64,000 nucleotides of DNA from Paraburkholderia aromaticivorans (lineage in GTDB: Bacteria; Pseudomonadota; Gammaproteobacteria; Burkholderiales; Burkholderiaceae), in the NCBI RefSeq assembly GCF_002278075.1, contig NZ_CP022990.1, forward strand, positions 372,001-436,000, read 5' to 3'. This document shows, in pieces, positions 11,090 to 55,081 of the stretch. How positions within the stretch are numbered: the first letter of the stretch is position 1; the number at the start of each line of letters is the position of its first letter. Made by a program: the position numbers and the translations under genes. The notes beneath the pieces were generated by a model. That model was not told the DNA's origin, did no database searches, and worked only from the letters and a program-made list of their open reading frames with translations.

Positions 11090-11480
11090 ACGCCGAACGT
11101 TGTCCGGGTAAGCGTTTACACTGACTCCCGGAAGACGCCTCGTCTGCTGCACCACCGCATCTCACGCGGCAACCCCGCCGAAACGCATTTTTTTTGCCGC
11201 CCACCGCGTCGACTTGCTCTGGCGCGACATGCGTCGGCGCCCCCCCGAACACCCTCCAAACCCTTGCCCAGTAACGCTTCGGCCGCCGCCGCGCGGCGTG
11301 CGCCAGATAGGGGTGTCGCATTTCCACATGTGCTTGTCGCAAATAGTCGGCTAGGCGTACTTTTTTCTGGCAACTATGTATGCACAGCGCGGACGGACGT
11401 CCGCCACTGCAGCAACTATCTTGCATGGGACTGGAGTCGGCGTTAAAGCGCTGGCTCAGGTCGACATAGGAGAGCATTCA
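11090..11480. other. Intergenic region carrying the transporter promoter
   Basis: About 390 bases with no credible gene. The last 170 bases hold two copies of TGTCGCA spaced 21 bp (11314 and 11335). A candidate -10 box (AACTAT/TATGTA at 11372-11380) lies about 37-40 bp after the second copy. There is no good -35 box, as expected for an activator-dependent promoter. AGGAGAG at 11468-11474 is the ribosome site of the downstream ATPase gene. Confidence 0.5.
11314..11341 (+). promoter_or_regulatory. Direct repeat TGTCGCA x2, 21-bp period: candidate GlxA/GbdR-type operator
   Basis: TGTCGCA occurs at 11314-11320 and again at 11335-11341, exactly two helical turns apart on the same face, upstream of choV. 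AraC-family activators, including GlxA-like ones, commonly bind such tandem half-sites next to the -35 region. Similar pairs with the same 21-bp period occur upstream of fdhA, sdaA, the betaine-binding protein gene and the porin gene. Binding is inferred from pattern only. Confidence 0.5.
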
Positions 11481-12659
11481 ATGAATTCCCCCAAGGTCGT
11501 GGTCGAAGGGCTGTGCAAGGTGTTCGGCACCAACCCGAAACAGGCGATCGGCATGCTGGCAGGCGGCGCAACGAAAGAGGAAGTGTTCGCGCGCACCGGT
11601 CAGATTGTCGGCGTCCACAACGTATCGTTCGAAGTCAAGGAAGGTGAGATCTTCGTGCTGATGGGCCTGTCCGGCTCGGGCAAGTCGACGCTGATCCGTC
11701 TGATCAACCGGCTGGTCGAGCCGAGCGCCGGCAAGGTGCTGATCGACGGGCGCGATGTGGCCAGCGTGCCGCGCTCGGAATTGACGGCGCTGCGCCGCAA
11801 GGACATGAGCATGGTGTTCCAGTCCTTCGCACTGATGCCGCAGCGCACCGTCCTGTCCAACGCGGCGTTCGGCCTCGAAGTGGCGGGCGTGGGCCGCAAG
11901 GAGCGCGAAAAGCGTGCGATGGCCGTGCTCGAACAGGTCGGCCTCGCGCCGTTCGCGGAAAAGCTGCCCGCGCAACTCTCCGGCGGTATGCAGCAGCGCG
12001 TGGGTCTCGCGCGGGCACTGGCGGTCAACCCGTCGCTGATGATCATGGACGAGGCGTTCTCCGCACTCGATCCGCTCAAGCGCAAGGAAATGCAGAACGT
12101 TCTGCTCGATCTGCAACGCGAGCAGCAGCGCACCATCCTGTTCGTGTCGCACGACCTGGAAGAGGCGATGCGTATCGGCACCCGCATCGCGATCATGGAA
12201 GGCGGCCGGGTCGTGCAGGTCGGCACGCCGCAGCAGATCATCACCAATCCGGCCGACGATTACGTCCGTGCGTTCTTCGAAGGCATCGACACGAGCCGCT
12301 ATCTGACCGCCGGCGATCTGATGCAGACCGACGCCGTGCCGCTCATGCAGCACTCGCCGCAGATCGATGCGTCGAGCGTGGCGGCCACGCTTAACGGCAG
12401 CGCCGACTACGCGTTCGTGCTCGACAGCGAACGCAAGATTCGCGGCTTCGTGTGCCGCGACGCGATGGGCAGCGCTTCGCCGCAACTCAATCAAATCGAA
12501 TGCATCCGCCGCACCACGCCGCTCGACGATGTGGTCGAACTGGTGGTGGCGAGCCGCGCGCCGCTGCCGGTTGTCGAAGCCGACGGTTCCTACTGTGGTT
12601 CGGTCAACAAGACGAACGTGCTGAACGTTCTCACACGCCATCGGAGTTCCCATGTCTGA
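11481..12659 (+). CDS. choV: Choline/glycine betaine ABC transporter, ATP-binding subunit
   Basis: A 392-residue ProV-type ATPase. Walker A GLSGSGKST is at residues 62-70, the ABC signature LSGGMQQR at 166-173, Walker B LMIMDEAFSALDP near 183-195, and the switch His in FVSHDLEEA. The extra C-terminal region from about residue 285 looks like a CBS regulatory domain, as in OpuAA/ProV. It powers uptake of quaternary amines. The ATG at 11481 follows AGGAGAG. The gene overlaps the permease gene by 8 bases. I call it choV rather than proV because of the ChoX-type binding protein and catabolic context; a cbcV name would be equivalent. Confidence 0.88.
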   Translation: MNSPKVVVEGLCKVFGTNPKQAIGMLAGGATKEEVFARTGQIVGVHNVSFEVKEGEIFVLMGLSGSGKSTLIRLINRLVEPSAGKVLIDGRDVASVPRSELTALRRKDMSMVFQSFALMPQRTVLSNAAFGLEVAGVGRKEREKRAMAVLEQVGLAPFAEKLPAQLSGGMQQRVGLARALAVNPSLMIMDEAFSALDPLKRKEMQNVLLDLQREQQRTILFVSHDLEEAMRIGTRIAIMEGGRVVQVGTPQQIITNPADDYVRAFFEGIDTSRYLTAGDLMQTDAVPLMQHSPQIDASSVAATLNGSADYAFVLDSERKIRGFVCRDAMGSASPQLNQIECIRRTTPLDDVVELVVASRAPLPVVEADGSYCGSVNKTNVLNVLTRHRSSHV

Positions 12660-13554
12660 AGTCATTCCACTTGGCGCCTGGGTCGATCACGGCGTTCATT
12701 ACCTGCTTGACCACGACGCAAAAACGTTTGATTCCATCGGCAAGGTCATCGAGAGCTTTGCAGCGGTGATCGAACACGGTCTGCAAGCCGTGCCGATGTG
12801 GGCGATGATGGCCTTTTTTGTCGGCATCGGTCTGTGGCGGGTGGGCTGGCGCTTCGCGCTGTTCACGCTGCTCGCCATGCTGCTGATCTACGGCACCGGG
12901 TTCTGGGATCAGATGGTGATCACGCTCGGCCTGACGTTATCGTCCACGTTGATCAGCTTGCTGCTCGGCGTGCCGCTCGGCATCTGGACCGCGAAGAGCC
13001 GTACCGTCGAGATGATGGTGCGCCCCGTGCTCGATCTGATGCAGACCATGCCGGCATTCGTGTACCTGATTCCGGCCGCGATGCTGTTCGGTCTGGGCCG
13101 CGTGCCGGGGATTCTCTCTACCGTCATTTTCGCCATGCCGCCGGCGGTGCGTCTCACGTCGCTCGGCATCAAGCATGTGAACCGGGAAATCGTCGAAGCA
13201 GGGCAGGCGTTCGGCTGCACGCCGTGGCAATTGCTCTACAAGGTGCAGTTTCCCAACGCGCTGCCTTCGATCATGACCGGCGTGAACCAGACCATCATGA
13301 TGGCGCTCTCCATGGTGATCATCGCGTCGATGGTGGGGGCGGGCGGTCTGGGCAACGACGTGCTGGCGAGTATTCAGCGGCTCGATATCGGGCTCGGCTT
13401 CGAAAGCGGATTGTCGGTGGTGATGCTGGCGATCATCCTCGACCGCATCACCGAGAGCTTCGGCCGGTCGCCGGGCATGGCGCGCGCGCCGCTACTGTCG
13501 GGCTTGCGCAGCCTCATGAAAGTGCGCCGCGAGCCGGCGGCACAACACGGCTGA
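12652..13554 (+). CDS. choW: Choline/glycine betaine ABC transporter, permease subunit
   Basis: A 300-residue ProW/OpuAB-type permease with about six hydrophobic helices. The conserved cytoplasmic EAA loop that docks with the ATPase reads EAGQAFGCTPWQLLYKVQFP. Other family motifs are VLDLMQTMPAFVYLIPA and ASMVGAGGLGNDVL. It forms the channel for choline/betaine uptake with the upstream ATPase, whose stop codon lies inside its first codons. The ATG at 12652 is the only sensible start. A GlxA-type regulator follows after 7 bases, so all three genes are probably one transcript. Confidence 0.88.
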   Translation: MSEVIPLGAWVDHGVHYLLDHDAKTFDSIGKVIESFAAVIEHGLQAVPMWAMMAFFVGIGLWRVGWRFALFTLLAMLLIYGTGFWDQMVITLGLTLSSTLISLLLGVPLGIWTAKSRTVEMMVRPVLDLMQTMPAFVYLIPAAMLFGLGRVPGILSTVIFAMPPAVRLTSLGIKHVNREIVEAGQAFGCTPWQLLYKVQFPNALPSIMTGVNQTIMMALSMVIIASMVGAGGLGNDVLASIQRLDIGLGFESGLSVVMLAIILDRITESFGRSPGMARAPLLSGLRSLMKVRREPAAQHG

Positions 13555-13561
13555 GCCGCCA

Positions 13562-14563
13562 ATGAAGCGCGACGCGATCACGCCGGTCGAGCCCCAAGCC
13601 GATTCGCCGCTGTCCGGGCTCGCGCACGTCGGCTTTCTGACGCTGCCGAACTTTTCGATGATCGCGTTCACCAGCGCGGTCGAGGTGCTGCGCATGGCCA
13701 ACTACGTGGGCCGCGCGCAGCACTACCGGTGGTCGGTGATCACGCCCGACGGCGAGCCGGCGCGAGCGAGCAACGGCATCACGGTGAAGCCCACCACCAC
13801 GCTCGCCGAAGCCGGCATGCCGGACGTGCTGATCGTCTGCGCCGGCTGGCATGTGCGCGAATACGTGGACGACACGGTGATTGCGTTGCTGCGCGACGTA
13901 GCCGCAAAAGGCATTCCGCTCGGCGGCATCTGCACGGGACCGTACGCGCTGCTGGCCGCCGGACTGCTCGACGGTTATCGCTGCACCGTGCACTGGGAAG
14001 ACATGTCGCCGCTGCACAAGACTTACCCGGATGTGCGTTTCGCCGACGAACTGTTCGTGATCGACCGCGATCGCCTGACCTGCACGGGTGGCACCGCGCC
14101 GCTCGATCTGATGCTTAACCTGGTCGGCATGCGGCTCGGGCATGCGGTCGCAGCGCAGGTGTCCGAACAGTTCATCGTCGAGCGGATTCGCGGCTCGACG
14201 GACTACCAGCACATTCCCGTCGATGCGCGGGTCGGTTTCTCGCGCGCGGAACTGATCGAGGTGGTGCGCCTCATGGAAGCGAATATCGAGGAGCCGTTGT
14301 CGCTCGACGAACTCGCGCGGCTCGTGCGTCTGTCGCAGCGGCATTTGCAACGCATGTTCAAGATGTTCCTGAGCGTGTCGCCGACGCACTACTATCTGAC
14401 GCTGCGTTTGCGGCGCGCACGTGAACTGCTGCGCAATACGGATGCGTCGATTGCGCGCGTGACGACGGTGTGCGGCTTTCATTCGCCGTGTCATTTCAGC
14501 AAGGCCTATCGCGCGCAGTTCGGTCATGCGCCGAGCGTCGAGCGGCGCTTGTCCGCACAGTGA
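13562..14563 (+). CDS. GlxA-family AraC-type regulator of the choline transporter region
   Basis: A 333-residue regulator with two domains. A DJ-1/PfpI-like amidotransferase-fold sensor spans residues about 18-190 (HVGFLTLPNFSMIAFTSAVE, GGICTGPYALLAAGLL). An AraC helix-turn-helix domain lies at about 225-325 (LSLDELARLVRLSQRHLQRM, then TVCGFHSPCHFSKAYRAQFG). GbdR and CdhR, the betaine and carnitine regulators of Pseudomonas, have this architecture. Its place between choVW and choX suggests control of quaternary-amine uptake. It is one of three such paralogues in the window, and I cannot assign the ligand. Confidence 0.82.
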   Translation: MKRDAITPVEPQADSPLSGLAHVGFLTLPNFSMIAFTSAVEVLRMANYVGRAQHYRWSVITPDGEPARASNGITVKPTTTLAEAGMPDVLIVCAGWHVREYVDDTVIALLRDVAAKGIPLGGICTGPYALLAAGLLDGYRCTVHWEDMSPLHKTYPDVRFADELFVIDRDRLTCTGGTAPLDLMLNLVGMRLGHAVAAQVSEQFIVERIRGSTDYQHIPVDARVGFSRAELIEVVRLMEANIEEPLSLDELARLVRLSQRHLQRMFKMFLSVSPTHYYLTLRLRRARELLRNTDASIARVTTVCGFHSPCHFSKAYRAQFGHAPSVERRLSAQ

Positions 14564-14663
14564 GTTGCGTCACGCTTGCATGATGCGCCGCCCGAAACGG
14601 TCGGCGTACAGGAATCCGCTTCGTCAACAACCAGTCAAGCATCTATCACCCTGAGGGAACGCC

Positions 14664-15599
14664 ATGAAACGTTTGTGGGCTGCGTCGTTGTGCGCGCTGT
14701 CTGTGTCATCTGTCTTTGCTGCGGAACCCGCCACTTGCCGCGACGTCCGGTTTGCCGACGTCGGCTGGACCGATATCGCGGCGACCACCGGGCTTGCGTC
14801 GACCGTGCTCGAGGGGCTCGGCTACAAGCCGACCAAGACGATCGCCTCGGTGCCGATCACCTTCGCCGGCGTGAAGAGCAAGCAGATCGACGTTTTTCTC
14901 GGTTACTGGTCGCCGACCATGGACCCGATGATCGATCCGTTCAAGAAGTCCGGCCAGCTCAGCGTTTTGCCCACGCCGAATCTGACCGGCGCGAAATACA
15001 CGCTGGCGGTGCCGGATTATGCGTATCAGTCCGGCATCAAGACGTTCGCCGACATCGCGAAGAACTACGACAAGCTCGACGGCAAGATCTATGGGATCGA
15101 GCCGGGCAACGACGGCAATGCGTTGATCAAGAAGATGATCGACAGCAATCAGTACGGGCTCGGCAAATTCAAGCTGGTGGAGTCGAGCGAGGCGGGTATG
15201 CTGGTCGAGGTGAACCGTGCGATTCGCGCGAAGAAGCCGATTGTGTTTCTCGGCTGGGAGCCGCATCCGATGAACGTGCAGATGAAGATAGATTATCTGT
15301 CCGGCGGTGACGACGTGTTCGGGCCAAATTATGGCGAAGCGAAAGTGCTGACGGTCACGCCGAGCGATTATTCGACGCGCTGCCCGAATGTGGCGAAGCT
15401 GGTGTCGAATCTGCAGTTCACGACCGATATCGAGAACCACGTCATGCTGCCGATCATGAACAAGACCGACCCGAACAAGGCCGCGCGCGAATGGCTGAAG
15501 GCGAATCCGGCGGTGCTGGACAAGTGGCTGGCCGGGGTGAAGACGTATGACGGGAAGGATGGGTTGCCGGCCGTGAAGGCTTATGTAGCAGGGAAGTGA
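14664..15599 (+). CDS. choX: Choline ABC transporter substrate-binding protein
   Basis: A 311-residue periplasmic protein with a signal peptide (cleavage after SSVFA). It carries the aromatic-box pattern of ChoX: GWTDI near residue 34, GYWSPTMDP near 87, VPDYAYQSG near 115 and GWEPHPMN near 195. Trp and Tyr residues there cage the trimethylammonium group, with an Asp for the hydroxyl side. It also shares the ChoX signature KIYGIEPGNDGNALIKKMID. It should deliver choline, perhaps betaine, to ChoVW. The ATG follows GAGGGAAC. The gene is 100 bases after the GlxA regulator. Confidence 0.85.
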   Translation: MKRLWAASLCALSVSSVFAAEPATCRDVRFADVGWTDIAATTGLASTVLEGLGYKPTKTIASVPITFAGVKSKQIDVFLGYWSPTMDPMIDPFKKSGQLSVLPTPNLTGAKYTLAVPDYAYQSGIKTFADIAKNYDKLDGKIYGIEPGNDGNALIKKMIDSNQYGLGKFKLVESSEAGMLVEVNRAIRAKKPIVFLGWEPHPMNVQMKIDYLSGGDDVFGPNYGEAKVLTVTPSDYSTRCPNVAKLVSNLQFTTDIENHVMLPIMNKTDPNKAAREWLKANPAVLDKWLAGVKTYDGKDGLPAVKAYVAGK

Positions 15600-18740: not shown

Positions 18741-19823
18741 TCAAATCGCCCGCGCCCGCCCCGGAAACGTCTCCTCATAATCCCCACTATCCACGCCTTC
18801 CGCCGCGGTGCCGCGCTGCTCGCGATACATCATCGGCGGCAAACCGAACTGCTTGCGGAATTCCCGCCCCAGATGCGACGCATCGGAAAACCCGCAACTC
18901 GACGCAATATCGGCCACCGTCTTATCCGAACTCGTGAGCAGCCACGCGGCGGTGCGCAAACGCACCTGCTTCGCATAAGCCTGCGGCGCCTTACCCGTTT
19001 GCGCCTTGAAAAGCCGCTCCAACTGACGCGGCGACAGATCGAGCTTGCCCGCAAGTTCGTCGAGCGACAATGAACGGCCCACATGCTGCTCCATCAGCAG
19101 AATCGCGCGCTTCACCTTCGGATGCGCGGCCGGCGCGAGTCCCGGTGGATGCGGCTGCGGCGCGTTACCTTTCTGCATGTCGTCCACAAGCAGAATACGC
19201 AGCGCCTTCTGCACCGTGGCGGTTTCGAAATGCCGCAGCAGAATCGCGGCGGCGACGTCGATCGACGCGCGTCCGCCTGAACACGTAATGCGGCGGCGGT
19301 CGATCACGAACAGCCGGTCGGCGACCAGCGCCTCCTCGTTGACCGACGGAAAGCGTTCGATGAAATCCCAGTAGTGAAACCAGCTCACGCAGATGCGGTG
19401 TCCCTCCAGCACGCCCGCGCGCATCAACGAAAACACGCCCGTGCACATGCCGACGAGCGTCGCATTCGTGGCGGCGGCGCGGCGAATGAAGGCGAGGGTT
19501 GCTTCGTTCGTGGCAGGCCCGGAATGCAGCAGGCCGCCCACCACCACCACGTAATCGAACGGCTCGGCGGTGTCGAAGGTTTCCCACGGTGTGATCTGAA
19601 TGCCACAACTCGCGCGCACCGGAGCAAGGGTTTCCCCTATTACGCTCCACGAACAGCGCACGGGCTTGCTGAAATCGCCTTCGTCCGCGGACAGGCGCAG
19701 CAGGTCGACGAAACCCGAAAACGCCGTCAGCGTGAAATTCGGCAGCAGGATGATGCCGAAGCGGATGCGCTGCTTCGAGGTGCCGTCAATCGATTGAAGG
19801 GGAAGCGGTTCAGCGGAATTCAT
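18741..19823 (-). CDS. GlxA-family AraC-type regulator divergent from sdaA
   Basis: A 360-residue regulator. The N-terminal DJ-1/PfpI-like domain at residues about 20-200 shows RIRFGIILLPNFTLTAFSGF and GMCTGVFSLMRAGVLEGHR. The C-terminal AraC domain at about 250-345 shows LSLDELAGKLDLSPRQLERL and DIASSCGFSDASHLGREFRK. It is divergent from sdaA and soxBDAG, so it is a good candidate sarcosine- or glycine-responsive activator, like SouR of Pseudomonas aeruginosa, which is also a GlxA-type protein. I chose MNSAEP at 19823. The frame opens 48 codons earlier, but that part would cover the direct-repeat operator and is Arg-rich shadow. Confidence 0.8.
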   Translation of the reverse strand: MNSAEPLPLQSIDGTSKQRIRFGIILLPNFTLTAFSGFVDLLRLSADEGDFSKPVRCSWSVIGETLAPVRASCGIQITPWETFDTAEPFDYVVVVGGLLHSGPATNEATLAFIRRAAATNATLVGMCTGVFSLMRAGVLEGHRICVSWFHYWDFIERFPSVNEEALVADRLFVIDRRRITCSGGRASIDVAAAILLRHFETATVQKALRILLVDDMQKGNAPQPHPPGLAPAAHPKVKRAILLMEQHVGRSLSLDELAGKLDLSPRQLERLFKAQTGKAPQAYAKQVRLRTAAWLLTSSDKTVADIASSCGFSDASHLGREFRKQFGLPPMMYREQRGTAAEGVDSGDYEETFPGRARAI

Positions 19824-19938
19824 GCGTGCAGCCAGCAAGGGAAAGGGTTGGATCAAGCATAGCACCAGCGACGGCGGCCGCAGCCTGCGCGCGGATTGGC
19901 GGCGTGCCGCCAGCATCGCCAGCCGCCAGCCCGGCGCC

Positions 19939-19974
19939 TTTCGCAAATGCGTCAGAAGTCTTCGCAAATACGTC
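19939..19974 (+). promoter_or_regulatory. Direct repeat TTCGCAAATrCGTC x2, 21-bp period
   Basis: TTCGCAAATGCGTC at 19940-19953 and TTCGCAAATACGTC at 19961-19974 agree at 13 of 14 positions and start exactly 21 bp apart. They lie between the divergent GlxA-type regulator and sdaA. The core TCGCAAATA is shared with the second half-site upstream of choV (11335). This is the best-conserved repeat pair in the window and probably an operator of an AraC-family dimer controlling sdaA-sox, its own gene, or both. Confidence 0.6.
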
Positions 19975-20106
19975 GCGCCCCTTTGCCGGCGGGCCGCTTG
20001 ACGCCACTATCCCACCGTCATGCCGTTTTTATTCTATCGATTCAATTTGACGTGCGGTGCAATAGAGGCAAATCCACCCAAGGCATCGCAACGCACAAGG
20101 CACGCC

Positions 20107-33965: not shown

Positions 33966-33997
33966 CCGTGTCGGTTCCGGCCAAACCCGTGTCGCGT
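33966..33997 (+). promoter_or_regulatory. Direct repeat CCGTGTCG x2, 21-bp period, upstream of fdhA
   Basis: CCGTGTCG at 33966-33973 is repeated without mismatch at 33987-33994, 21 bp further on, about 105-135 bases before the fdhA start. A weak -10 candidate TACGCT (34027-34032) lies 37 bp after the second TGTCG. The same spacing and TGTCG core appear upstream of choV, which suggests a shared AraC-type activator. Confidence 0.5.
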
Positions 33998-34100
33998 TCG
34001 ATACATGCGTCCGGTTCAGCGGGCGCTACGCTCGTTGAACGGCGTGCCGCAGGAAACCCGGCGAATTGGGCGCGCCGCTCACAAGACATGGAGACAGACA

Positions 34101-36320: not shown

Positions 36321-36350
36321 CTCAAGCCGCCTCAAGCCGCCTCAAGCCGC
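36321..36350. repeat. 10-bp unit CTCAAGCCGC repeated three times at a stop codon
   Basis: Three copies of CTCAAGCCGC lie head to tail. On the minus strand each reads GCGGCTTGAG, and the most upstream copy supplies the final Ala codon and the TGA of the GlxA-type regulator gene. The other copies lie in its 3' untranslated region. Copy-number change would not alter the protein. It is probably a slippage product. Confidence 0.7.
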
Positions 36351-37337
36351 CAGCACCGGCACCGCAGCCAGCGACGGCGCCTGCTTGCGTCTTTCGCGCG
36401 TGGGCGCGGTGCCGAACGCGTCGCGATAGCTCTTCGAGAAATGGCACGCCGACTGGAAGCCGCACGCCATCGTGATGTGCATGATCGACATGTCGGTTTG
36501 CAGCAGAAGCTCGCGCGCGCGCCGCAAACGCAGCGTCAGATAGTAATGCGTCGGCGTCATGCCCAGATGTTCGCGGAACAGGCGCTGCAATTGCCGTTGC
36601 GACATGCCGGCGAGCCGCGCGAGTTCTTCGCGCGAGAGCGGCTCCTCGATGTTGTTCTCCATCAGCGCGATCACTTCGAAGAGCGACTTGTTGGCCGAGC
36701 CGAGCCGCGCCACCAGCGGCATTTTCTGTTGCGCGCTGGTATCGCGCACATGTTCGACGATGAACTGCTCGGCGATCTGCGTGACACGTGCCGTGCCGAC
36801 GCGCGGCGCGATCAGGTTCAGCATCATGTCGAGCGGCGCCACGCCGCCGGTGCACGTGACGCGATCGCGATCGATCACGAACAGTTCTTTCAGAAAGCGC
36901 GTGTCGGGAAACTCTTCCTTGAGCGCCGACATGTTCTCCCAGTGAATCGCGCAGGCATAACCGGCCAGCAAACCGGCGCGCGCCAGCGCATAGGTGCCGG
37001 TGCACAGGCTGCCGAGCACGCTGCCCATACGGGCGAAGCGGCGCAGTGCGGAAAGATGGGCGGGCGTGGTCGCGCGCTGCACGTCGATGCCGCCGACCAC
37101 GAACACGATGTCCGGCTGGCCGACGCATTCCACCGGACCCGTGTCGACCGACAAGCCGTTGCTGGCCATGACCGGGCCACCCTCGGGACTCACGATCGAC
37201 CAGCGGTAAAGCGTTTGTCCCGTCAGATAGTTCGCCATGCGCAGGACTTCAATCGCGTTGGTGAACGCAATCATGGTGAAGTTGGGAACCGGCATGAATG
37301 CGAAATGCGACAGCGATGCCGTGCGATCGGTGGACAT
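36342..37337 (-). CDS. gbdR: GlxA-family AraC-type regulator, likely GbdR
   Basis: A 331-residue regulator. The DJ-1/PfpI-like sensor domain at residues about 10-190 has FAFMPVPNFTMIAFTNAIEV and GSLCTGTYALARAGLLAGYA. The AraC domain at about 220-315 has LSREELARLAGMSQRQLQRL and ITMACGFQSACHFSKSYRDA. In Pseudomonas, GbdR of this type senses betaine and dimethylglycine and activates gbcAB, dgcAB and sox genes. Divergence from the glyA-dgc-gbc operon makes this copy the best GbdR candidate of the three paralogues here. The name rests on context. Confidence 0.75.
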   Translation of the reverse strand: MSTDRTASLSHFAFMPVPNFTMIAFTNAIEVLRMANYLTGQTLYRWSIVSPEGGPVMASNGLSVDTGPVECVGQPDIVFVVGGIDVQRATTPAHLSALRRFARMGSVLGSLCTGTYALARAGLLAGYACAIHWENMSALKEEFPDTRFLKELFVIDRDRVTCTGGVAPLDMMLNLIAPRVGTARVTQIAEQFIVEHVRDTSAQQKMPLVARLGSANKSLFEVIALMENNIEEPLSREELARLAGMSQRQLQRLFREHLGMTPTHYYLTLRLRRARELLLQTDMSIMHITMACGFQSACHFSKSYRDAFGTAPTRERRKQAPSLAAVPVLAA

Positions 37338-37780
37338 GGGAGGAATGATTCCTTCGAATCTGTAATGTCGCGTCGCCGTGGGGAGCAGCGACTTCTCTAA
37401 TTCTGAGGACTAGGGCAACTACCGTGCCATCAGGCTAAACCCTCGGTTGCGCGCCGTTCCACTCAGATAGTTGAACAACCGGCACCAGAACGGCGCTATC
37501 GAGGTTCATCGGCGCACCTGAACTGCGCGCGACGGTCAGTTGCAGTGCAACATGCGCGGCGCGTACAGCACGCTCGTTCGCTTGCCGGCGAAGACAGACG
37601 GGTGCCGACTTGTCGAAAAAGGACGCTCATGGCGGAAAAGGCAAAGAACGCGTCTGAATTCATAAATTGACGCGCGTGTCGAGCGTCAAGAATAGACCCA
37701 ATGCACACCGGCGGCGGCAGGGGCGAAGCGAAGCCCAGGCGCGGCTTCCGGCCCTCCGTCAACGACTCCACGGACCTTCC
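37338..37780. other. Divergent control region between gbdR-like gene and glyA
   Basis: About 440 bases without a credible gene. It should hold the promoters of the regulator and of the long glyA-to-gbcB gene set. TTGACG at 37667-37672 followed 17 bases later by GAATAG is a weak promoter candidate for glyA. TGTCG occurs at 37366, 37611 and 37677, but no pair has the 21-bp period seen elsewhere. I see no riboswitch-like fold or terminator. Confidence 0.45.
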
Positions 37781-39055
37781 ATGTCGAACCCGAATCCTTT
37801 CTTCGAAGAATCGCTCGCCACACGCGACGCGGCGGTGCGCGGCGCTATTTTGAAAGAGCTCGAGCGCCAGCAGTCGCAAGTTGAACTGATTGCGTCGGAA
37901 AACATCGTATCGCGCGCGGTGCTCGAAGCGCAGGGCTCGGTGCTGACCAACAAGTATGCGGAAGGCTATCCGGGCAAGCGTTACTACGGCGGTTGCGAAT
38001 ACGCCGACGTGATCGAAACGCTGGCGCTCGATCGTATCAAGCAGCTTTTCAACGCGAAGTTCGCCAACGTGCAGCCGCATTCCGGCGCGCAGGCGAACGG
38101 CGCGGTGATGCTCGCGCTGGTGAAGCCGGGCGACACGGTGCTCGGCATGTCGCTCGACGCGGGCGGCCACCTCACGCACGGCGCGAAGCCGGCCATGTCC
38201 GGCAAATGGTTCAACGCCGTGCAGTACGGTGTGAATCGCGACACGATGCTGATCGACTACGAGCAGATCGAAGAACTCGCGCAGCAGCATAAACCCGCGC
38301 TGCTGATCGCAGGCTTCTCGGCGTATCCGCGCGCGCTCGACTTCGCACGGCTGCGCGCGATTGCCGACGGCGTCGGCGCCAAACTGATGGTGGATATGGC
38401 GCACATCGCCGGCGTGATCGCGGCGGGCCGTCATCAGAATCCGGTCGAGCATGCGCATGTGGTCACCTCGACCACCCACAAGACACTGCGCGGCCCGCGC
38501 GGCGGCTTCGTGCTGACGAATGACGAAGACATCGCGAAGAAAATCAATTCGGCGGTGTTTCCCGGCTTGCAGGGCGGTCCGCTGATGCACGTGATCGCCG
38601 GCAAGGCAGTCGCGTTCGGCGAGGCGCTGCAACCCGGGTTCAAGACTTATATCGACAGCGTGCTCGCCAATGCGCAGACGCTCGGCGAAGTGCTGAAGGC
38701 AGGCGGCGTGGATCTGGTGACGGGCGGCACGGACAACCATCTGCTGCTGGTCGATCTGCGGCCGAAGGGCCTCAAGGGCAATCAGGTCGAGCAGGCGCTG
38801 GAACGCGCGGGCATTACCTGCAACAAGAACGGCATTCCGTTCGACACCGAGAAGCCCACGATCACCTCCGGCATTCGCCTCGGCACACCCGCGGGCACGA
38901 CGCGCGGCTTCGGTGTGAGCGAGTTCCGCGAAGTCGGGCGGCTGATCGTCGAGGTGCTCGACGCGCTGCGCGACCACCCGGAAGGCCACGCCGCCACCGA
39001 ACAACGCGTGCGCCGCGAGATTTTCGCGCTGTGCGAACGCTTTCCCATCTACTAA
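37781..39055 (+). CDS. glyA: Serine hydroxymethyltransferase
   Basis: A 424-residue PLP enzyme interconverting glycine plus methylene-THF with serine. It has the N-terminal [45 protein letters not shown], and the PLP-lysine motif [17 protein letters not shown]. Length is typical (about 415-425). As first gene of the betaine catabolic set, it uses both glycine and the methylene-THF made by sarcosine oxidase. This is probably an inducible second copy beside a housekeeping glyA elsewhere (inference). The ATG at 37781 matches the family start; the frame opens 38 codons earlier. Confidence 0.93.
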
Positions 39056-45870: not shown

Positions 45871-46643
45871 AAATCGCCGTCCTTGTTTCCGTGGGCCGTC
45901 ATCCGGTGAGCGGCACGGCGCGGTACAGCCGTAACGACGCCGCCGCGCTGACCATGGCGCTCGCGCTCGCCAGAACGAACAACGCCACGCTCGAGGTGCT
46001 GCATGCGGGCGATCCATCGAACCCTGCGTTGCAGGAGTATCTGGCGCTCGGCGCGCGGTCGGTCGAAGTGCTGGACCTGGCCACGACGCCTGAAATGCAG
46101 GCGGACGCAGCCGCTGCGCTGGCGGCGCGGCTGGGCGGCTACGAGCTCGTGCTGACCGGCACGCGCGCCGAAGGCGCATTCGACAGCGGCATGCTGCCGT
46201 ATCGCGTCGCCCATGCGCTGGAGATCGCGCTGGTCGGCGCCGCGGTCGACATCACGTTGCGTGACGGCTGCGCGGAAGTCCGCCAGTTCATGCCGAAGGG
46301 TTTGCGCCGGCGCGTCGAAGTCCAACTGCCCGCGCTGATCGCGGTGCATCCGATGGCCAACGCCGCACCTACCTACGCCTACGCACGGTTGCGCGAAGGC
46401 ACGATCCGTCCGGTCGCCACGCAAGCGGCCGGCGGCCCTGAAGGCCTCGCCTGGAGCGTCCGTCCGGCGGCCGCCAAGCCGGTGCGTCTCGCCGCCGCCG
46501 AAAAGCGCTCGGGCCACGCCCGCATGCTATCGGCGACCACGACCGAAAGCCGCGGGGGCTCCGTCGTAATTGAAGGGAGTTCCGTCGAAAAAGCACAAGT
46601 GATCCTCGCGTATTTGCGCGAGCATCAACTCGTGGATTACTGA
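45867..46643 (+). CDS. etfB: Electron transfer flavoprotein, beta subunit (betaine-pathway paralogue)
   Basis: A 258-residue ETF beta subunit starting MKIAVLVSVGRHPVSGTARY. It has the ETF adenosine-binding pattern (ALTMALALARTNNATLEVLH, YELVLTGTRAEGAFDSGMLP) and the beta-type middle domain (RRRVEVQLPALIAVHPMANA). The ATG at 45867 overlaps the etfA stop. The frame is open far upstream inside etfA, but that is shadow. It forms the ETF heterodimer with the upstream gene. gbcA follows after 73 bases. Confidence 0.87.
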   Translation: MKIAVLVSVGRHPVSGTARYSRNDAAALTMALALARTNNATLEVLHAGDPSNPALQEYLALGARSVEVLDLATTPEMQADAAAALAARLGGYELVLTGTRAEGAFDSGMLPYRVAHALEIALVGAAVDITLRDGCAEVRQFMPKGLRRRVEVQLPALIAVHPMANAAPTYAYARLREGTIRPVATQAAGGPEGLAWSVRPAAAKPVRLAAAEKRSGHARMLSATTTESRGGSVVIEGSSVEKAQVILAYLREHQLVDY

Positions 46644-46716: not shown

Positions 46717-48030
46717 ATGAAAGTTTCGGCAGACGTTCGCGCAATGATCGAACGCCGTAAGACGAATTACACGCTGGAAGCGCCTTTCTATACGAGCGAG
46801 GATATTTTCGCGCTCGACATGGACGCGATCTTCCGGCAACACTGGATTCAGGTCGCGGTGGAGCCGGACGTGCCGGAACCGGGCGACTACATCACCGTGG
46901 AGGTCGGCAACGATTCGATCCTGATCGTGCGCGACGACGACATGCAGGTGAGGGCGTTTCACAACGTGTGCCGCCATCGCGGCGCTCGCCTGTGCAATAC
47001 CGACAAAGGCTCGCTCGGCAATATCGTCTGTCCGTATCACAGCTGGACGTATAGCCTGAACGGCGATCTGATGTTCGCCGAGCACATGGGCGATCAGTTC
47101 GACCGCTGCAAACATAGCCTGAAGGCCGTGCATCTCGAGAACCTCGCGGGCCTCATTTTCATTTGCCTCGCGGACAATCCACCCGCGGACTTCGCCGTGA
47201 TGCGTGCCGCGATGGAACCGTATCTGCTGCCGCACGATCTGGCCAGCTGCAAGGTCGCGGCTTCGATCGACATTATCGAAGACGGTAACTGGAAGCTCAC
47301 GATGGAAAACAATCGCGAGTGCTATCACTGCGTCGCGAACCATCCCGAGCTGACCATTTCGCTGTACGAATACGGCTTTGGCTATCAGCGCACGCCGGCC
47401 AACGAAGAAGGCATGGCCGCTTTCGAAGAGACGGTGGCGCGCCGTACCGCGCAATGGGAAGCGATGCAGTTGCCGTCGGCGGAAATCGAACGGCTTGCCG
47501 ATCTGGTTACGGGTTTTCGCACGCAACGCTTGCCGCTCGATCGCGACGGCGAATCGCAAACGCTCGACGCGAAAGTGGCCTCGAAGAAACTGCTCGGCGG
47601 CTTCGAGCAGGCGGATCTCGGCGGCCTGTCGTTCTGGACCCAGCCCAACTCGTGGCATCACTTCATGAGCGACCACATTGTCAGCTTCTCGGTGATTCCG
47701 CTCTCGGCGGGCAAGACGCTGGTGCGCACCAAGTGGCTCGTTCACAAGGACGCGCGCGAAGGCATCGACTACGACGTGAACAACCTCACGGCCGTATGGC
47801 GCGCGACGAACGACCAGGATCGCGCGCTCGTCGAATACTCGCAACGCGGCGCGACGAGCAGCGCGTACGAACCGGGTCCGTATTCGCCGTTCACGGAAGG
47901 TCTCGTCGAGAAATTCTGCGAGTGGTACATCGGCCGCCTGGCGGATTACAGCCATGCACCGGACACCCAGGACGCCGGCGAAACCGCGCCGGCTTCGCAC
48001 GGCGAGAAAGTCGTGTCCTTCATGCGCTGA
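46717..48030 (+). CDS. gbcA: Glycine betaine monooxygenase, Rieske oxygenase subunit
   Basis: A 437-residue aromatic-ring-hydroxylase-type oxygenase. The Rieske [2Fe-2S] ligands are Cys85-x-His87 (CRHRGARLC) and Cys105-x2-His108 (CPYHSW). The mononuclear iron site uses His204 and His209 in NRECYHCVANHPEL plus a downstream Asp. It demethylates glycine betaine to dimethylglycine, releasing formaldehyde. Length and motifs match Pseudomonas GbcA. It is followed after 33 bases by its reductase gbcB. CAACGGAGCAC upstream gives the ribosome site. Confidence 0.92.
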   Translation: MKVSADVRAMIERRKTNYTLEAPFYTSEDIFALDMDAIFRQHWIQVAVEPDVPEPGDYITVEVGNDSILIVRDDDMQVRAFHNVCRHRGARLCNTDKGSLGNIVCPYHSWTYSLNGDLMFAEHMGDQFDRCKHSLKAVHLENLAGLIFICLADNPPADFAVMRAAMEPYLLPHDLASCKVAASIDIIEDGNWKLTMENNRECYHCVANHPELTISLYEYGFGYQRTPANEEGMAAFEETVARRTAQWEAMQLPSAEIERLADLVTGFRTQRLPLDRDGESQTLDAKVASKKLLGGFEQADLGGLSFWTQPNSWHHFMSDHIVSFSVIPLSAGKTLVRTKWLVHKDAREGIDYDVNNLTAVWRATNDQDRALVEYSQRGATSSAYEPGPYSPFTEGLVEKFCEWYIGRLADYSHAPDTQDAGETAPASHGEKVVSFMR

Positions 48031-48063
48031 ACGCGCCGCCGCAACCAGGAGTCGGAGAAAACA

Positions 48064-49323
48064 ATGATGCGCGATCAGGCCACGTTTCAGCTCAGCACGG
48101 AGCCGGCTTCGGACCACGCTGCCAGCCGCGTCACGCAGCCGCGGTTCTGGGAGGCGCTGCCGGCGCGCTGGAACAGCGATACCGACGACACGCTGGTGTG
48201 CTGCCAGGTCCGGCAGGAAACGCATGACGTAAAGAGCTTTTTCTTTCGCGCGCCGTCCGGTCGGGCGTTCGTATTCGAGCCGGGCCAGTTCATCACGCTG
48301 GAACTGGAGATAGACGGCGAGTCGATCAATCGCTGCTATACGATCTCCTCGCCGCCCACGCGGCCGCATACGATCTCGATTACGGTGAAGCGCGTGCCGG
48401 GCGGCAAGGTGTCGAACTGGCTGCACGACAATCTTCACGCGGGCACCGAGGTTCGCGTGCTCGGACCGGCGGGCGAGTTCACCTGCGCGCGCCACCCGGC
48501 GCGCAAGTTCCTGTTTCTTTCGGCGGGCTCGGGCATTACGCCGCTAATGTCGATGAGCCGGGCGCATCATGAGCTCGGTGAAGACAGCGACATCGTGTTC
48601 GTGCACAGCGCCCGTACGCCGGACGACATTATCTTCGCGCGCGAACTCGATCTGATCGCGTCGAATCAGGCGCATTTCCGCACCGCGTTTGTTTGCGAAC
48701 GGCTCGGCGCGCGCACGAACTGGCCTGGTGTGACCGGTTTTCTGACGCTGCCGCTGCTCAAACTGATTGCGCCGGACTTTCTGGAGCGTGAGATTTTCAC
48801 CTGCGGACCCGCGCCGTACATGCAGGCCGTACGCAATCTGCTGGACGAGGGCGGGTTCGATCGCAGCCACTATCACGAGGAAAGTTTTTCATTCGAGACG
48901 GTGGCCGAGGTGGCCGCGCAATTGACCACCGCTCACGTCGCGGACGCATTGCAGGGTGCGAGCGCGCCCGTGAGCGCCGACAGCTTCATCGAGGCGCGCG
49001 AAGAGGCGGCCGGCTTCGCGCCCGTGTCCACGCCGTCGCCCGCAGCCGTTGAAACGGAAAGCCGCTTCAAGGTGAGTTTCGCCAAAAGCAATCGCGAGAT
49101 CGAATGCGGCAGTGGCCAGCACGTGCTCGACGCGGCGAAGAAGGCGGGCGTACGGTTGCCCGCGTCGTGCACGCAGGGTATGTGCGGTACCTGCAAGGTC
49201 AAGCTGGTGTCCGGTGAAGTCGCGATGAAACATGCCGGCGGCATTCGCCAGCGTGAAATCGATCAGGGCATGGTGCTGCTGTGCTGCAGCAAGCCGTTGT
49301 CCGATCTGGTCGTGGATAAGTAA
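48064..49323 (+). CDS. gbcB: Glycine betaine monooxygenase, reductase subunit
   Basis: A 419-residue ferredoxin-NAD(P)H reductase fusion. It has the FAD-binding motif RCYT (SINRCYTISSPPTRPH, near residue 90), the NAD motif SAGSGITPLMSMSRAHHE, and FTCGPAPYMQAVRNLLDEGG. A C-terminal plant-type [2Fe-2S] domain uses Cys369-x4-Cys374-x2-Cys377 and Cys407 or Cys408. It supplies electrons from NAD(P)H to GbcA. Two adjacent ATG codons (48064, 48067) are possible starts. About 60 residues before the ferredoxin are a low-complexity linker. Confidence 0.91.
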   Translation: MMRDQATFQLSTEPASDHAASRVTQPRFWEALPARWNSDTDDTLVCCQVRQETHDVKSFFFRAPSGRAFVFEPGQFITLELEIDGESINRCYTISSPPTRPHTISITVKRVPGGKVSNWLHDNLHAGTEVRVLGPAGEFTCARHPARKFLFLSAGSGITPLMSMSRAHHELGEDSDIVFVHSARTPDDIIFARELDLIASNQAHFRTAFVCERLGARTNWPGVTGFLTLPLLKLIAPDFLEREIFTCGPAPYMQAVRNLLDEGGFDRSHYHEESFSFETVAEVAAQLTTAHVADALQGASAPVSADSFIEAREEAAGFAPVSTPSPAAVETESRFKVSFAKSNREIECGSGQHVLDAAKKAGVRLPASCTQGMCGTCKVKLVSGEVAMKHAGGIRQREIDQGMVLLCCSKPLSDLVVDK

Positions 49324-49353: not shown

Positions 49354-49381
49354 AGTCGCGTGCGGACAACTGGATGTCGGA
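49354..49381 (+). promoter_or_regulatory. GTCG half-site pair, 21-bp period, upstream of betaine-binding protein gene
   Basis: AGTCGCG at 49354-49360 and TGTCGGA at 49375-49381 share GTCG and start exactly 21 bp apart. A candidate -10 TTCTAA (49414-49419) lies about 39 bp after the second. The geometry is like the choV and fdhA repeats, but the half-sites match less well. It could give the binding-protein gene its own promoter within the operon. Confidence 0.35.
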
Positions 49382-49461
49382 AAACAACGCTACCCGGCAA
49401 TTCTGGCTGGCGATTCTAAATGCACATTGGGTTGTTTTTGACGGCAAACGGGAGAGCGGCG

Positions 49462-50319
49462 ATGGGACTGATCAGAAAGATGTTTGTGTTGAGCGCTTTG
49501 AGCGCGGCGCTGGCGGCAAGCAGCGTAAGTGTGTCGGCCGATACCAAGCCGACCATCAAGATCGGTTACGTGGAAGGCTGGGACGATAGCGTCGCGACTT
49601 CGAACGTGGCCGCGCGCGTGATCGAAAAGCGCCTCGGCTATCAGGTGCAACTCGTGCCGGTCGCAGCAGGCGTGATGTGGCAAGGCGTGGCGCGCGGCGA
49701 TCTCGACGCGACGCTGTCCGCGTGGCTGCCGGTCACGCACGGCGCGTACTGGAACAACTTCAAGGACAAGGTGATCGATCTGGGTCCGAACTTCAACGAT
49801 GCGAAGATCGGCCTGATCGTGCCGGATAACGCCGACGTGAAGAGCCTCGGCGATCTGGAGGCGAAGAAAGCGGAGTTCGGTTCGCGCATTGTCGGTATCG
49901 ACGCCGGCGCGGGCGTGATGCAGAAGACCAGCGAGGCCATCAAGGCCTATGGACTCGACTACACGCTGATGCCGAGCTCGGGCAGCGCGATGACCGCGGA
50001 ACTGGCGCGCTCGGAAGCGGCGAGCAAGCCGATTATCGTGACCGGCTGGAAGCCGCACTGGATGTTCGCGAAGTACAAGCTCAAATTCCTCGAAGATCCG
50101 AAGAAGGTGTTCGGCGAAGCGGAGCATGTGGATAGCGTGGTGAACCCTGACCTCGAGAAGAAGGCGCCGCCGGTTGTCGCGTTCCTCAAGAAGTTTCAAT
50201 GGAAGCCGGGCGAGATCGACAGCGTGATGCTGGCGACGCAGAACGGCGAAAAGCCAACCGCTGCCGCCGACGCCTGGATCAGCGCGCACGGCGATCGTGT
50301 GGATAGCTGGGTGAAGTGA
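49462..50319 (+). CDS. Glycine betaine-type ABC transporter substrate-binding protein
   Basis: A 285-residue periplasmic protein with signal peptide (MGLIRKMFVLSALSAALAAS, cleavage near VSADT). It has the OpuAC/CaiX pattern: KIGYVEGWDDSVATSNVAAR, LDATLSAWLPVTHGAYWNNF, GIDAGAGVMQKTSEAIKAYG and VTGWKPHWMFAKYKLKFLED. Trp and Tyr in these places form a cage for betaine or carnitine. No permease or ATPase lies next to it, so it may use ChoVW, as the free-standing CaiX and BetX proteins of Pseudomonas do with CbcWV. The ATG follows GGGAGAG. Confidence 0.85.
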   Translation: MGLIRKMFVLSALSAALAASSVSVSADTKPTIKIGYVEGWDDSVATSNVAARVIEKRLGYQVQLVPVAAGVMWQGVARGDLDATLSAWLPVTHGAYWNNFKDKVIDLGPNFNDAKIGLIVPDNADVKSLGDLEAKKAEFGSRIVGIDAGAGVMQKTSEAIKAYGLDYTLMPSSGSAMTAELARSEAASKPIIVTGWKPHWMFAKYKLKFLEDPKKVFGEAEHVDSVVNPDLEKKAPPVVAFLKKFQWKPGEIDSVMLATQNGEKPTAAADAWISAHGDRVDSWVK

Positions 50320-50338
50320 TCCCGCTTTCCGTGTGAAC

Positions 50339-50400: not shown

Positions 50401-50402
50401 CG

Positions 50403-51278
50403 TTATTGCAGCACGACGGTCCGATCGCCGTTGATGAACACCCGCCGCTCGATGAATGCCTTGACCGCGCGCGCGAGGGTGATGCATTCGACGTCGCGCC
50501 CGGTGGCGAGCAGGCGCTCCGGACTATACGAATGATCGACGCGCTCCACCACCTGTTCGATGATCGGGCCTTCGTCGAGATCGTCGGTGACGAAATGCGC
50601 GGTGGCGCCGATCAGTTTGACGCCGCGCGCATGCGCCTGGTGATACGGCTTCGCACCCTTGAAGCCGGGCAGGAACGAATGGTGGATATTGATCGCGCGT
50701 GCCGCGAGCGCACGGCTCGTTTCGCCGGACAGAATCTGCATATAGCGCGCGAGAATCATCAACTCCGCGCCGGAAGTCTCGAACAGATCGAGCAGGCGTG
50801 CTTCCTGTTGCGGCTTCGTATCGGCCGTGATCGGCAGATGGTGGAAGGGCAGGCCATGCTGCTGCGCCAACGGTTCCAGATCGCGATGATTCGAACCAAT
50901 GCCGACGATGTCCATTTTCAGTTCGCCCATGCGCCAGCGGAACAGCAGATCGGCGAGACAGTGTTCGAGTTTCGACACCATGATCAGCACTTTCGGCCGC
51001 GTGTCGACGTCGTGCATCGCCCACGTCATGCGGAAGCGCTCGGCGATCGGCTCGAATTCGCGCTTGAGGGCCGCGGCGTGAAGCGTTTCGCTGCTGTCCA
51101 CGCCGTGGAATACGCAGCGCACGAAGAAGCGCTCACTGAGGTCGTCGTCGAAAACGGTCAGTTCGTCGATATAGCAATGATGCCGGTCGAGAAAGCCGAC
51201 GACGGCGGCAACCTGGCCCGCCGCGCTCGGACACGCGACGGTGAGAACCAGCTGATCGGGACGGGAATCGGCGGACAT
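50403..51278 (-). CDS. purU: Formyltetrahydrofolate deformylase
   Basis: A 291-residue enzyme with an N-terminal ACT domain (QLVLTVACPSAAGQVAAVVG) and a formyl-transferase-type hydrolase domain with IVGIGSNHRDLEPLAQQHGL, INIHHSFLPGFKGAKPYHQA and GATAHFVTDDLDEGPIIEQ. It cleaves 10-formyl-THF to formate and THF. Next to betaine demethylation genes it would recycle THF loaded with one-carbon units. Length matches E. coli PurU (280). The start MSADSRP at 51278 has GGAGAGC upstream; the frame opens 15 codons earlier. Confidence 0.92.
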   Translation of the reverse strand: MSADSRPDQLVLTVACPSAAGQVAAVVGFLDRHHCYIDELTVFDDDLSERFFVRCVFHGVDSSETLHAAALKREFEPIAERFRMTWAMHDVDTRPKVLIMVSKLEHCLADLLFRWRMGELKMDIVGIGSNHRDLEPLAQQHGLPFHHLPITADTKPQQEARLLDLFETSGAELMILARYMQILSGETSRALAARAINIHHSFLPGFKGAKPYHQAHARGVKLIGATAHFVTDDLDEGPIIEQVVERVDHSYSPERLLATGRDVECITLARAVKAFIERRVFINGDRTVVLQ

Positions 51279-51417
51279 GCGCTCTCCACTTGGACAATAG
51301 GGCGATGCCGCGGGGCGCGGCATGCATCATCGCAGTAGATCAAATCAGGCGCGCACGCGGATAGAAGCTAAACGCCGTCGCGCTGGAACGGGAGCGTCAG
51401 GTTCGCCGGGCCGGTGC

Positions 51418-52332: not shown

Positions 52333-52355
52333 AACACCCCCTTATAGGCACATAA

Positions 52356-52393
52356 CGAATTGCCGTCTTCACAGTGGCGAATTGAACGGCAAT
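52356..52393. promoter_or_regulatory. Repeat elements between the LysR gene and betC
   Basis: ATTGCCGT (52359-52366) and ACGGCAAT (52386-52393) form an 8-bp inverted repeat. The same region holds CGAATTG twice (52356 and 52378). LysR-type activators bind such interrupted dyads between divergent genes. This is the best candidate operator here; binding is inferred. Confidence 0.4.
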
Positions 52394-52495
52394 AGTGGTA
52401 CGCATGGCGAGCCCGGCATGCGGGCCGCCGGCTCGCCGTCGTCATGACGGCGACATCCGCACCGACACTTGCGATTCTATTCGAGGCACGCCCCC

Positions 52496-54034: not shown

Positions 54035-54082
54035 TTCTCACTCTGCCAGTCCACCCCACCTCACGAACAGGAAGCCGACATA

Positions 54083-55033
54083 ATGAAAAAGCTCTTCAAT
54101 CAGGCGGTAACCGGCGTGGCGCTGCTGTGCGCGTCGGCCACATTCGCATTGGCCGCCGAGCCGCAGTCGTGCACGCAGGTCAACATGGCGGGGCCGGGAT
54201 GGACCGACATCGACGCGACCAATGCGATGACCGGCGTGCTGTTGAAGGCGCTGGGCTACAGGCAGAACGTGGCGAATCTGTCGGTGCCGATCACGTATCA
54301 AGGCTTGAAGAAAGGGCAGATCGACGTGTTTCTCGGCAACTGGATGCCGGCGCAGGCGCCGGTCGTCAAGCCGTTCGAGGAAGAAAAGTCGATCGAGGTC
54401 GTGCATCCGAATCTAAGCAACGCCAAGTTCACGCTCGCCGTGCCCGACTACGTGGCGGCCTCCGGCATTCACTCCTTCGCTGATCTGGCAAAGAACGCCG
54501 ACAAGTTCGACAGCAAGATTTATGGCATCGAGCCCGGCGCGCCGGCCAATCAGAACATCAAGAAGATGGTGGACGACAAGGCGTTCGGGCTCGGCAACTG
54601 GAAGCTTGTCGAGTCCAGTGAAACCGGCATGCTGACACAGGTGGAGCGCGCGGTGCGCGAGAAAAAATGGATCGTCTTTCTCGCGTGGGAACCTCATTTG
54701 ATGAACACCCGCTTCAAACTCACCTACCTCGACGGCGGCGACCAATACTTCGGGCCCAACTACGGCGGCGCTACCGTCAATACGGTGGCGCGCAGCGGTT
54801 ATGCCGAGCAGTGTCCGAATGTCGGCAAGCTGTTCAGGCAACTCACGTTCAATGTGGATCTGGAAAACGGCGTGATCACGGAAGTACTGGAAAAGAAGAC
54901 CCCCGTGGACGCAGCCGCGGCGCAAGCGCTCAAGCGTCACCCCGAATTGCTGAAGTCGTGGCTCGACGGCGTGACCACGGCGAGCGGCGCCAATGGCTTG
55001 CAAGCCGTGCAAACCGCACTCGGCGTGAAATAA
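54083..55033 (+). CDS. choX: Second choline ABC transporter substrate-binding protein
   Basis: A 316-residue periplasmic protein with signal peptide (MKKLFNQAVTGVALLCASAT, cleavage near ALAAEP). It keeps the ChoX aromatic-box pattern: GPGWTDIDATN, GNWMPAQAP, VPDYVAASG and LAWEPHLMN. KIYGIEPGAPANQNIKKMVD replaces the matching stretch of the first copy. It is clearly paralogous to the protein at 14664-15599. It is co-oriented with betC, so it may import choline released by, or entering with, choline sulfate. It has no adjacent permease and probably relies on ChoVW. Confidence 0.85.
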   Translation: MKKLFNQAVTGVALLCASATFALAAEPQSCTQVNMAGPGWTDIDATNAMTGVLLKALGYRQNVANLSVPITYQGLKKGQIDVFLGNWMPAQAPVVKPFEEEKSIEVVHPNLSNAKFTLAVPDYVAASGIHSFADLAKNADKFDSKIYGIEPGAPANQNIKKMVDDKAFGLGNWKLVESSETGMLTQVERAVREKKWIVFLAWEPHLMNTRFKLTYLDGGDQYFGPNYGGATVNTVARSGYAEQCPNVGKLFRQLTFNVDLENGVITEVLEKKTPVDAAAAQALKRHPELLKSWLDGVTTASGANGLQAVQTALGVK

Positions 55034-55053
55034 GCGCGCATTCCTAACCATGA

Positions 55054-55081
55054 GGTCGCGCGACGACAGATTTATGTCGCA
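55054..55081 (+). promoter_or_regulatory. GTCGC half-site pair, 21-bp period, upstream of porin gene
   Basis: GGTCGCG (55054-55060) and TGTCGCA (55075-55081) share GTCGC and start exactly 21 bp apart. A -10 candidate TATTCT (55112-55117) follows 37 bp after the second half-site. This resembles the choV arrangement, so the porin may belong to the choline regulon. Confidence 0.4.

Follow-up and report, generated by a model that had tools for sequence, protein, structure and literature searches.

Conserved tandem half-sites with a 21-bp period, predicted GbdR-type operators, before choline and betaine genes of a Paraburkholderia island

We analyzed a 64-kb window, meaning here the whole stretch of DNA from the soil bacterium Paraburkholderia aromaticivorans (NZ_CP022990.1, positions 372,001 to 436,000), which lies on contig C2 of an 8.9-Mb genome and carries an island of choline and glycine betaine genes. 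Our subject is the tandem half-sites with a GTCG core that stand upstream of several of these genes. Gene names are based on NCBIfam and Pfam matches; dgcA, dgcB and betR were named from position and family, and gbdR1, gbdR2, gbdR3, choX2 and choX3 are labels coined in this analysis. The closest GbcA matches among named genomes were from Paraburkholderia. The island carries choVW, gbdR1 and choX, followed by gbdR2 on the minus strand, divergent from sdaA and the sox genes. It continues with the bet genes, fdhA and gbdR3, which is on the minus strand and divergent from glyA, and further on with dgcAB, etfAB, gbcAB, choX2, betR/betC, choX3 and the porin gene. The features under discussion are listed in Table 1.

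Table 1. Positions in the window of the predicted operators and of the genes most closely connected with them.
Feature	Position	Strand	Details
Predicted operator before choVW-gbdR1-choX	11314..11351	+	TGTCG 11314/11335; third GTCG 11346; -10-like AACTAT 11372-11377
gbdR1, GbdR-like regulator between choW and choX; candidate choV activator	13562..14563	+	55% identical to gbdR3
gbdR2, distant GlxA-type regulator, divergent from sdaA-soxBDAG	18741..19967	-	33% identical to gbdR3
TTCG/TTCG pair at 19940/19961, located between gbdR2 and sdaA; a different element	19939..19976	.	matrix score -22.8
Predicted operator before fdhA	33969..34005	+	TGTCG 33969/33990; -10-like TACGCT 34027-34032
gbdR3, GATase1/DJ-1-AraC regulator; candidate main activator	36342..37337	-	PF01965, PF12833, PF00165
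Predicted degenerate operator before glyA	37630..37693	+	TGGCG 37630, CGTCT 37651; -10-like AAGAAT 37688-37693
glyA, serine hydroxymethyltransferase; heads the cluster running to dgcAB and etfAB	37782..39055	+	
Predicted operator for gbcAB within the last codons of etfB	46562..46628	+	GTCG 46563/46584; -10-like GAGCAT 46620-46625
gbcA and gbcB, glycine betaine monooxygenase	46717..49323	+	
Predicted operator before choX2 (substrate-binding protein, start 49462)	49354..49392	+	GTCG 49355/49376; -10-like GATTCT 49412-49417
Predicted operator before the porin gene (start 55302)	55054..55092	+	GTCG 55055/55076; third GTCG 55086; -10-like TATTCT 55112-55117

An earlier note on this DNA had reported pairs of half-sites before choV, fdhA, sdaA, choX2 and the porin gene, and all five were found in the sequence where it had placed them, with a period of exactly 21 bp. 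We rejected any claim of significance from this one sequence alone, because GTCG-N17-GTCG occurs 22 times in the window (15 on the plus and seven on the minus strand) and other multiples of three give similar totals (26 at period 24, and 22 at both 15 and 33), which is what coding phase would produce. Over periods of 12 to 40, the window holds 0 to 17 such pairs per strand, and the 15 at period 21 are the top count for the plus strand. Genome-wide, TGTCG-N16-TGTCG was found 143 times, compared with 65 times for its reversed control, and an extended pair pattern gave 97 matches, five of them in the window, versus 56 for the reversed control. The 22 pairs and the figures for the extended pattern speak for chance repeats favored by the coding phase of GC-rich DNA, an explanation to which the orthologous promoters leave almost no room.

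We examined the regions upstream of the orthologous genes. The counts for choX2, the porin gene, gbcA and glyA refer to named loci, the best 80 of 591 confirmed gbcA relatives; those for choV and fdhA refer to 30 loci each, own copy included, out of 48 matches (in 47 of 58 genus genomes) and 53 matches (in 44 of 58), respectively. The choX2 gene was found in 76 of the 80 loci, and 74 of these carried a pair with the exact 21-bp period, 73 of them within 145 bp and one (L044) further upstream; both loci without the pair are from Cupriavidus. The porin gene was matched in 48 loci, three of which were left out, their alignment falling short of the start, and the exact pair was present within 420 bp in 43 of the remaining 45 (the misses being L004 and L035). 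The pair was also present in 29/30 choV loci, where the sole miss (L126) stops at a contig end, and in 30/30 fdhA loci. GTCG pairs at any other period reached at most 11/77 for choX2 and 14/30, at period 23, for fdhA. Higher counts were obtained at periods 10 (28 loci) and 31 (27/30) for choV and at period 31 for the porin gene (22/46 sequences, cut at 263 bases), because a third GTCG lies within the same site. This third GTCG, 10 bp past the second box (11346 and 55086), is itself conserved in the choV and many of the porin promoters. Since the exact period recurs in orthologous upstream regions, the pairs before choV, fdhA, choX2 and the porin gene are real and strongly conserved, and we predict them to be operators. 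The fifth pair, before sdaA, is poorly conserved (7/20 orthologs) and is a different element.

A further site lies within the coding sequence of etfB. The earlier note had seen no pair before gbcA; this was wrong, as a GTCG pair at 46563/46584 is kept in 80/80 loci, and a search for any 21-bp GTCG pair within 450 bp of gbcA likewise gave 80/80. Within the final 250 codons of etfB in these loci, the 14 codons of the site kept the commonest codon in 98% of sequences on average. The remaining 232 degenerate codons averaged 71%, and no stretch of equal length exceeded the site. Among the fixed codons, GTA (8%), AGT (9%), GGG (11%) and GCA (13%) are uncommon choices for their amino acid in this part of the gene. 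The site was present in three of four further genomes; the fourth, a genus genome of 5.2 Mb (G008), has a gbcA fragment beside a relative with 47% identity. A class-wide search for gbcA at an E value of 1e-130 found only the window's own genome among 369, a threshold too strict for this result to say anything about Pseudomonas. Scans limited to intergenic regions would miss a predicted activator site that is embedded in this way. The near-complete conservation at one exact period, the uncommon codons fixed in etfB, and a shared distance to the -10-like box described next contradict a chance origin for the six sites considered here; the sdaA pair may be due to chance.

Next, we analyzed the promoter geometry, taking the initial G of the first box as the origin of all offsets. 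An A at +58 and a T at +62 were present in all rows for choX2 (73/73), the porin gene (43/43), gbcA (72/72, these being the 72 of 80 rows that passed a position filter), choV (28/28) and glyA (59/59). For fdhA, they occurred at these offsets in 5/30 loci and one base further downstream in 25/30. The mean over the six groups was 0.86 at offset 58 and no more than 0.29 at any other of the 59 offsets tested (36 to 94). In the gbcA loci, the -10 box was also placed independently, as GAGCAT in 79/80 and GAACAT in 1/80, with letters that double as codons. A and T at those two places are the best conserved positions of the -10 hexamer. The earlier observation of a -10-like box at about 37-40 bp is thereby confirmed and refined, the hexamer beginning 36 bp past the second box. 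By this geometry, the second half-site would end at the -35 position, and transcription would start near +69. The downstream half-site thus adjoins the predicted -35 at a distance from the -10 box that is fixed, save mostly for fdhA, which is the class II placement of AraC/XylS-like activators as far as sequence geometry goes.

The site before glyA is degenerate. The earlier note had found no pair there, which is correct for a strict pair (GTCG twice at period 21 in 0/59 loci retained after filtering), but a degenerate one is present at 37631/37652. Both of its boxes fall within a block conserved in 60 sequences, at about 37605-37697. The first core reads GGCG in 40/59 and GTCG in 19/59 loci, the second reads GTCT in 59/59, and AAGAAT follows the pair in 58/59. 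As the strict pair is absent, the membership of glyA rests on position, period and geometry, and we add it to the predicted set with less certainty than the others. A pair at period 19 (GTCG twice in 11/59 loci) was set aside as the product of an extra upstream TGTCG, the geometry fitting the 21-bp pair. That extra TGTCG-like half-site (37611-37622), 19 bp upstream of the glyA pair, is conserved in many relatives. The absence of a pair before betC, also reported earlier, stands, since GTCG twice at period 21 occurred in 1/49 loci on either strand. The same strict pair occurred before dgcA in 0/75 loci and before gbdR3 in 0/72. Relaxed G[TC]CG pairs at period 21 were frequent upstream of betC (37/49, plus strand) and dgcA (48/75, minus strand), and we dismissed them as coding noise because other periods (for example 30, 24 or 27) gave similar numbers.

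The sdaA pair was rejected as a member of this operator class, being poorly conserved and differing in geometry. Among 20 sdaA orthologs of at least 84% identity, own copy included, seven have [GTA]TCG at both places, and the window has CTTGAC where the shared geometry would put the -10 box. Hence sdaA, which the earlier note had counted in the regulon, drops out of it. It is possible, with the odds leaning somewhat against it, that the pair is instead an operator of GbdR2, acting as a SouR-like sarcosine regulator of sdaA-soxBDAG. The gene gbdR2, whose listed open reading frame (ORF) probably extends beyond the true gene, adjoins sdaA in 13 of the 20 close orthologs (one more, L098, is uninformative, with 383 bp of upstream sequence). 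Seven of these 13 keep the pair, and the pair is degenerate in one ortholog (L082) with no gbdR2 within its 1.5-kb flank. Against this, the other six retain gbdR2 (83-86% identical) without a recognizable pair of this form. The geometry also differs, and a separate block of this promoter, CGTTTTTRTTCTATCG (20024-20039), is strongly conserved, with at most small changes in the 20 orthologs, whether or not gbdR2 is adjacent.

We also assessed how specific the remaining sites are. A matrix built from choX2 and porin orthologs ranked, within the window, choX2 first, followed by the porin gene, a site inside glyA, choV, fdhA and gbcA; the third of these, at 37872, was dropped for lying in the glyA coding sequence, and matches at 60527 and 60562 had low scores. 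A sequence-only model of 77 sites from the five promoters without glyA returned exactly those promoters as its genome-wide top five (150 of 2273 first-look candidates were scored). When each promoter in turn was left out, matrices run over 400 kb of the same genome (about 0.8 million positions) recovered choV, choX2 and the porin gene with 0-2 positions as good, the figure for choV being 0 of 798,520. Several results weigh against a single operator class read by a GbdR regulator. The outcome of the five-promoter model is partly by construction, as its 77 rows comprise two sites of the window itself (choV and fdhA) and, for the rest, orthologs. With fdhA or gbcA left out, 66-123 positions were as good (about 1e-4). 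Genome-wide, a profile from choX2, the porin gene and gbcA put its own members first and did not list choV or fdhA among the 150 of more than 4000 candidates that were scored; a profile from choV and fdhA likewise put its own members first, with choX2, the porin gene and gbcA missing from the 150 candidates scored. Even on the window with filters off, the sites left out of such subset profiles reached at most 7.1 bits (the porin gene) or were absent. To these points must be added the lack of any strict pair before glyA and the sub-threshold scores of the regulators given below. What unites the six sites is therefore less a full consensus than a core and a geometry, which would mean either that the recognized core is short or that two related regulators divide the sites between them.

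The candidate regulators combine a DJ-1/PfpI-like domain with an AraC helix-turn-helix (HTH), an architecture assigned to gbdR3 by Pfam and to gbdR1 and gbdR2 by alignment to gbdR3 only. A search of solved structures, made with gbdR3 only, found relatives of one domain or the other. Among 120 listed relatives of gbdR3, 10 are named glycine betaine-responsive activator by one source. The cutoff of the NCBIfam GbdR model (NF052371, 480 bits) was reached by none of the three (gbdR1, 372.7; gbdR2, 183.8; gbdR3, 376.8 bits), and we therefore word them as 'GbdR-like'. Within the genus, gbdR1 and choV are found in one and the same set of 47 genomes out of 58, which includes all 44 genomes with fdhA, and a gbdR1 homolog lies near choV in 30/30 choV loci. 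Two internal stops interrupt the gbdR3 homolog of G008, where fdhA gave no match at an E value of 1e-150 and gbcA is represented only by the fragment already mentioned, with choV, its operator and gbdR1 intact (the coordinates concerned are C2:25329-26123 and C2:35719-36249).

These observations could speak for two subclasses of operator, one with TGTCG twice (choV and fdhA) mainly used by GbdR1 and the other (gbcA, choX2 and the porin gene) by GbdR3, with glyA, part of neither profile, left unassigned, given that a profile from one subset fails to recover the other, that gbdR1 keeps company with choV in loci and genomes alike, and that G008, with its broken gbdR3 and no fdhA match, has kept choV, its operator and gbdR1. 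However, choV is the promoter most clearly recovered by a matrix built from the other four, choV and fdhA stand high in the window ranking of the choX2 and porin matrix, and the HTH regions of gbdR1 and gbdR3 are much alike. Moreover, G008 is a single case, and its loss of fdhA, a GbdR1 target under this scheme, does not fit. On balance, we consider such a division unlikely.

We compared these sites with known systems. CdhR binds GGTCGC repeats with a 15-bp spacer, described as closely resembling GbdR, SouR and ArgR sites, and at caiX of Pseudomonas aeruginosa its site shows the same direct GTCG-core repeats at a 21-bp period; within GTCG, the G and the T are important for activation, and CdhR is itself a GATase1-AraC regulator of quaternary amine catabolism (PMC5806209). 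Its site lies further upstream (class I; -216 to -112 or overlapping -112; PMC5806209), whereas the pair here abuts the -35 position, and the genes and the bacterial family are different. The ArgR box of Pseudomonas, TGTCGCN6GNAA, is arranged in tandem 5 bp apart (PMC10963909). It has in common with our sites the TGTCGC core, the period of 21 and perhaps the second box at positions 13-16, but its full form was matched by 0/6 window sites and its regulon is unrelated. Positions 15-16 of the half-site, AA in ArgR, are AA for choX2, fdhA and glyA, AG for the porin gene, AT for choV and GG for gbcA. XylS at the Pm promoter also recognizes a pair of direct repeats, each monomer using two HTH motifs, although the half-site letters differ (TGCA and GGTA boxes; PMC5481539). 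The GbdR regulon of Pseudomonas aeruginosa serves the same pathway, glycine betaine demethylation, and the regulators here match the GbdR model, albeit below its equivalog cutoff. In general, XylS at Pm and AraC at araI both use a 21-bp period and a site ending at -35, and the effector domain of XylS is not of the GATase1 type. Pseudomonas has one GbdR paralogue, whereas two close paralogues are present here, and the predicted targets in the island include choVW, choX2, the porin gene and an operator inside etfB. No study of a Burkholderiaceae GbdR operator stood among the titles screened, which is not proof as most subscription papers were outside the coverage. The main text of PMC8041468 mentions none of GbdR, CdhR and ArgR, and the consulted part of PMC3900636 gives no site.

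Since the Pseudomonas regulators CdhR and ArgR have operators with the same core and period, the GbdR-like proteins encoded at 36342-37337 and 13562-14563 are the likely binders. That CdhR and ArgR read nearly the same half-sites, and that GbdR and CdhR sites overlap in Pseudomonas, would also allow another regulator with a similar site, be it an ArgR- or CdhR-like protein encoded at another place in the genome or one outside the GATase1 type. All six targets, though, are choline or betaine genes or their neighbors and have two GbdR-like genes near them, and gbdR1 and choV are found in one shared set of genus genomes, so we regard another regulator as improbable. We propose instead, with a probability of about 0.82, that the six promoters carry a tandem operator of a GATase1-like (GbdR/CdhR/ArgR) AraC-family activator in class II position, with GbdR3 the likely binder and GbdR1 sharing or competing for the sites. 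The suggestion in the earlier note of a GlxA/GbdR-type regulon that joins uptake (choVW, choX2) with demethylation and the removal of its by-products (gbcAB, the glyA cluster, fdhA) and with a porin is supported, since the core, the 21-bp period, the conservation and the geometry all point the same way and the island encodes three GlxA-type regulators. The operator would be of a known kind, newly mapped here, with sdaA taken out of its membership and gbcA and glyA brought in.

The mechanism that we infer, from binding and activation to inducer, assignment of paralogues, half-site length and transcription start, would be as follows. Each half-site would span about 17 bp, with a GTCG box followed about 10 bp on by a CA-rich box (in five of the six), and the two half-sites, 21 bp apart, would lie on one face of the helix. 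With the downstream half-site ending beside -35, the bound dimer, probably of GbdR3 with its paralogue GbdR1 sharing or competing, could touch RNA polymerase at a weak -10 box (nAnnnT). By analogy with Pseudomonas, the inducer may be glycine betaine or dimethylglycine.

Some other features of the window were observed. Three choX-type substrate-binding proteins are encoded (14664-15599, 49462-50319 and 54083-55033), and the choVW permease/ATPase pair was seen once among the ORFs scanned. An ORF with YD repeats (15920-17182) adjoins choX. Between the sox genes and the bet genes stands a gene for a class C beta-lactamase (28719-29891; NF033085, 565.7 bits). The ORFs at 50406-51338 and 56561-57448, adjoining choX2 and the porin gene, had no NCBIfam or Pfam match at the thresholds used, and no Rfam family was detected at gathering thresholds in the 64 kb.

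The operator set would tie the porin gene to the choline/betaine regulon. Choline/betaine regulons in Paraburkholderia and Caballeronia could be predicted from the near-fixed geometry, and the division of labor between two GbdR paralogues becomes directly testable. As a tentative and rather doubtful extension, we suggest that the Burkholderiaceae may use one rigid promoter design from choline to glycine, in which two GbdR paralogues divide or compete for two operator subclasses, synonymous selection holds the promoter of gbcAB, which encodes the first committed enzyme, in the coding end of etfB, and the porin is part of the regulon, so that entry through the outer membrane is co-induced with catabolism.

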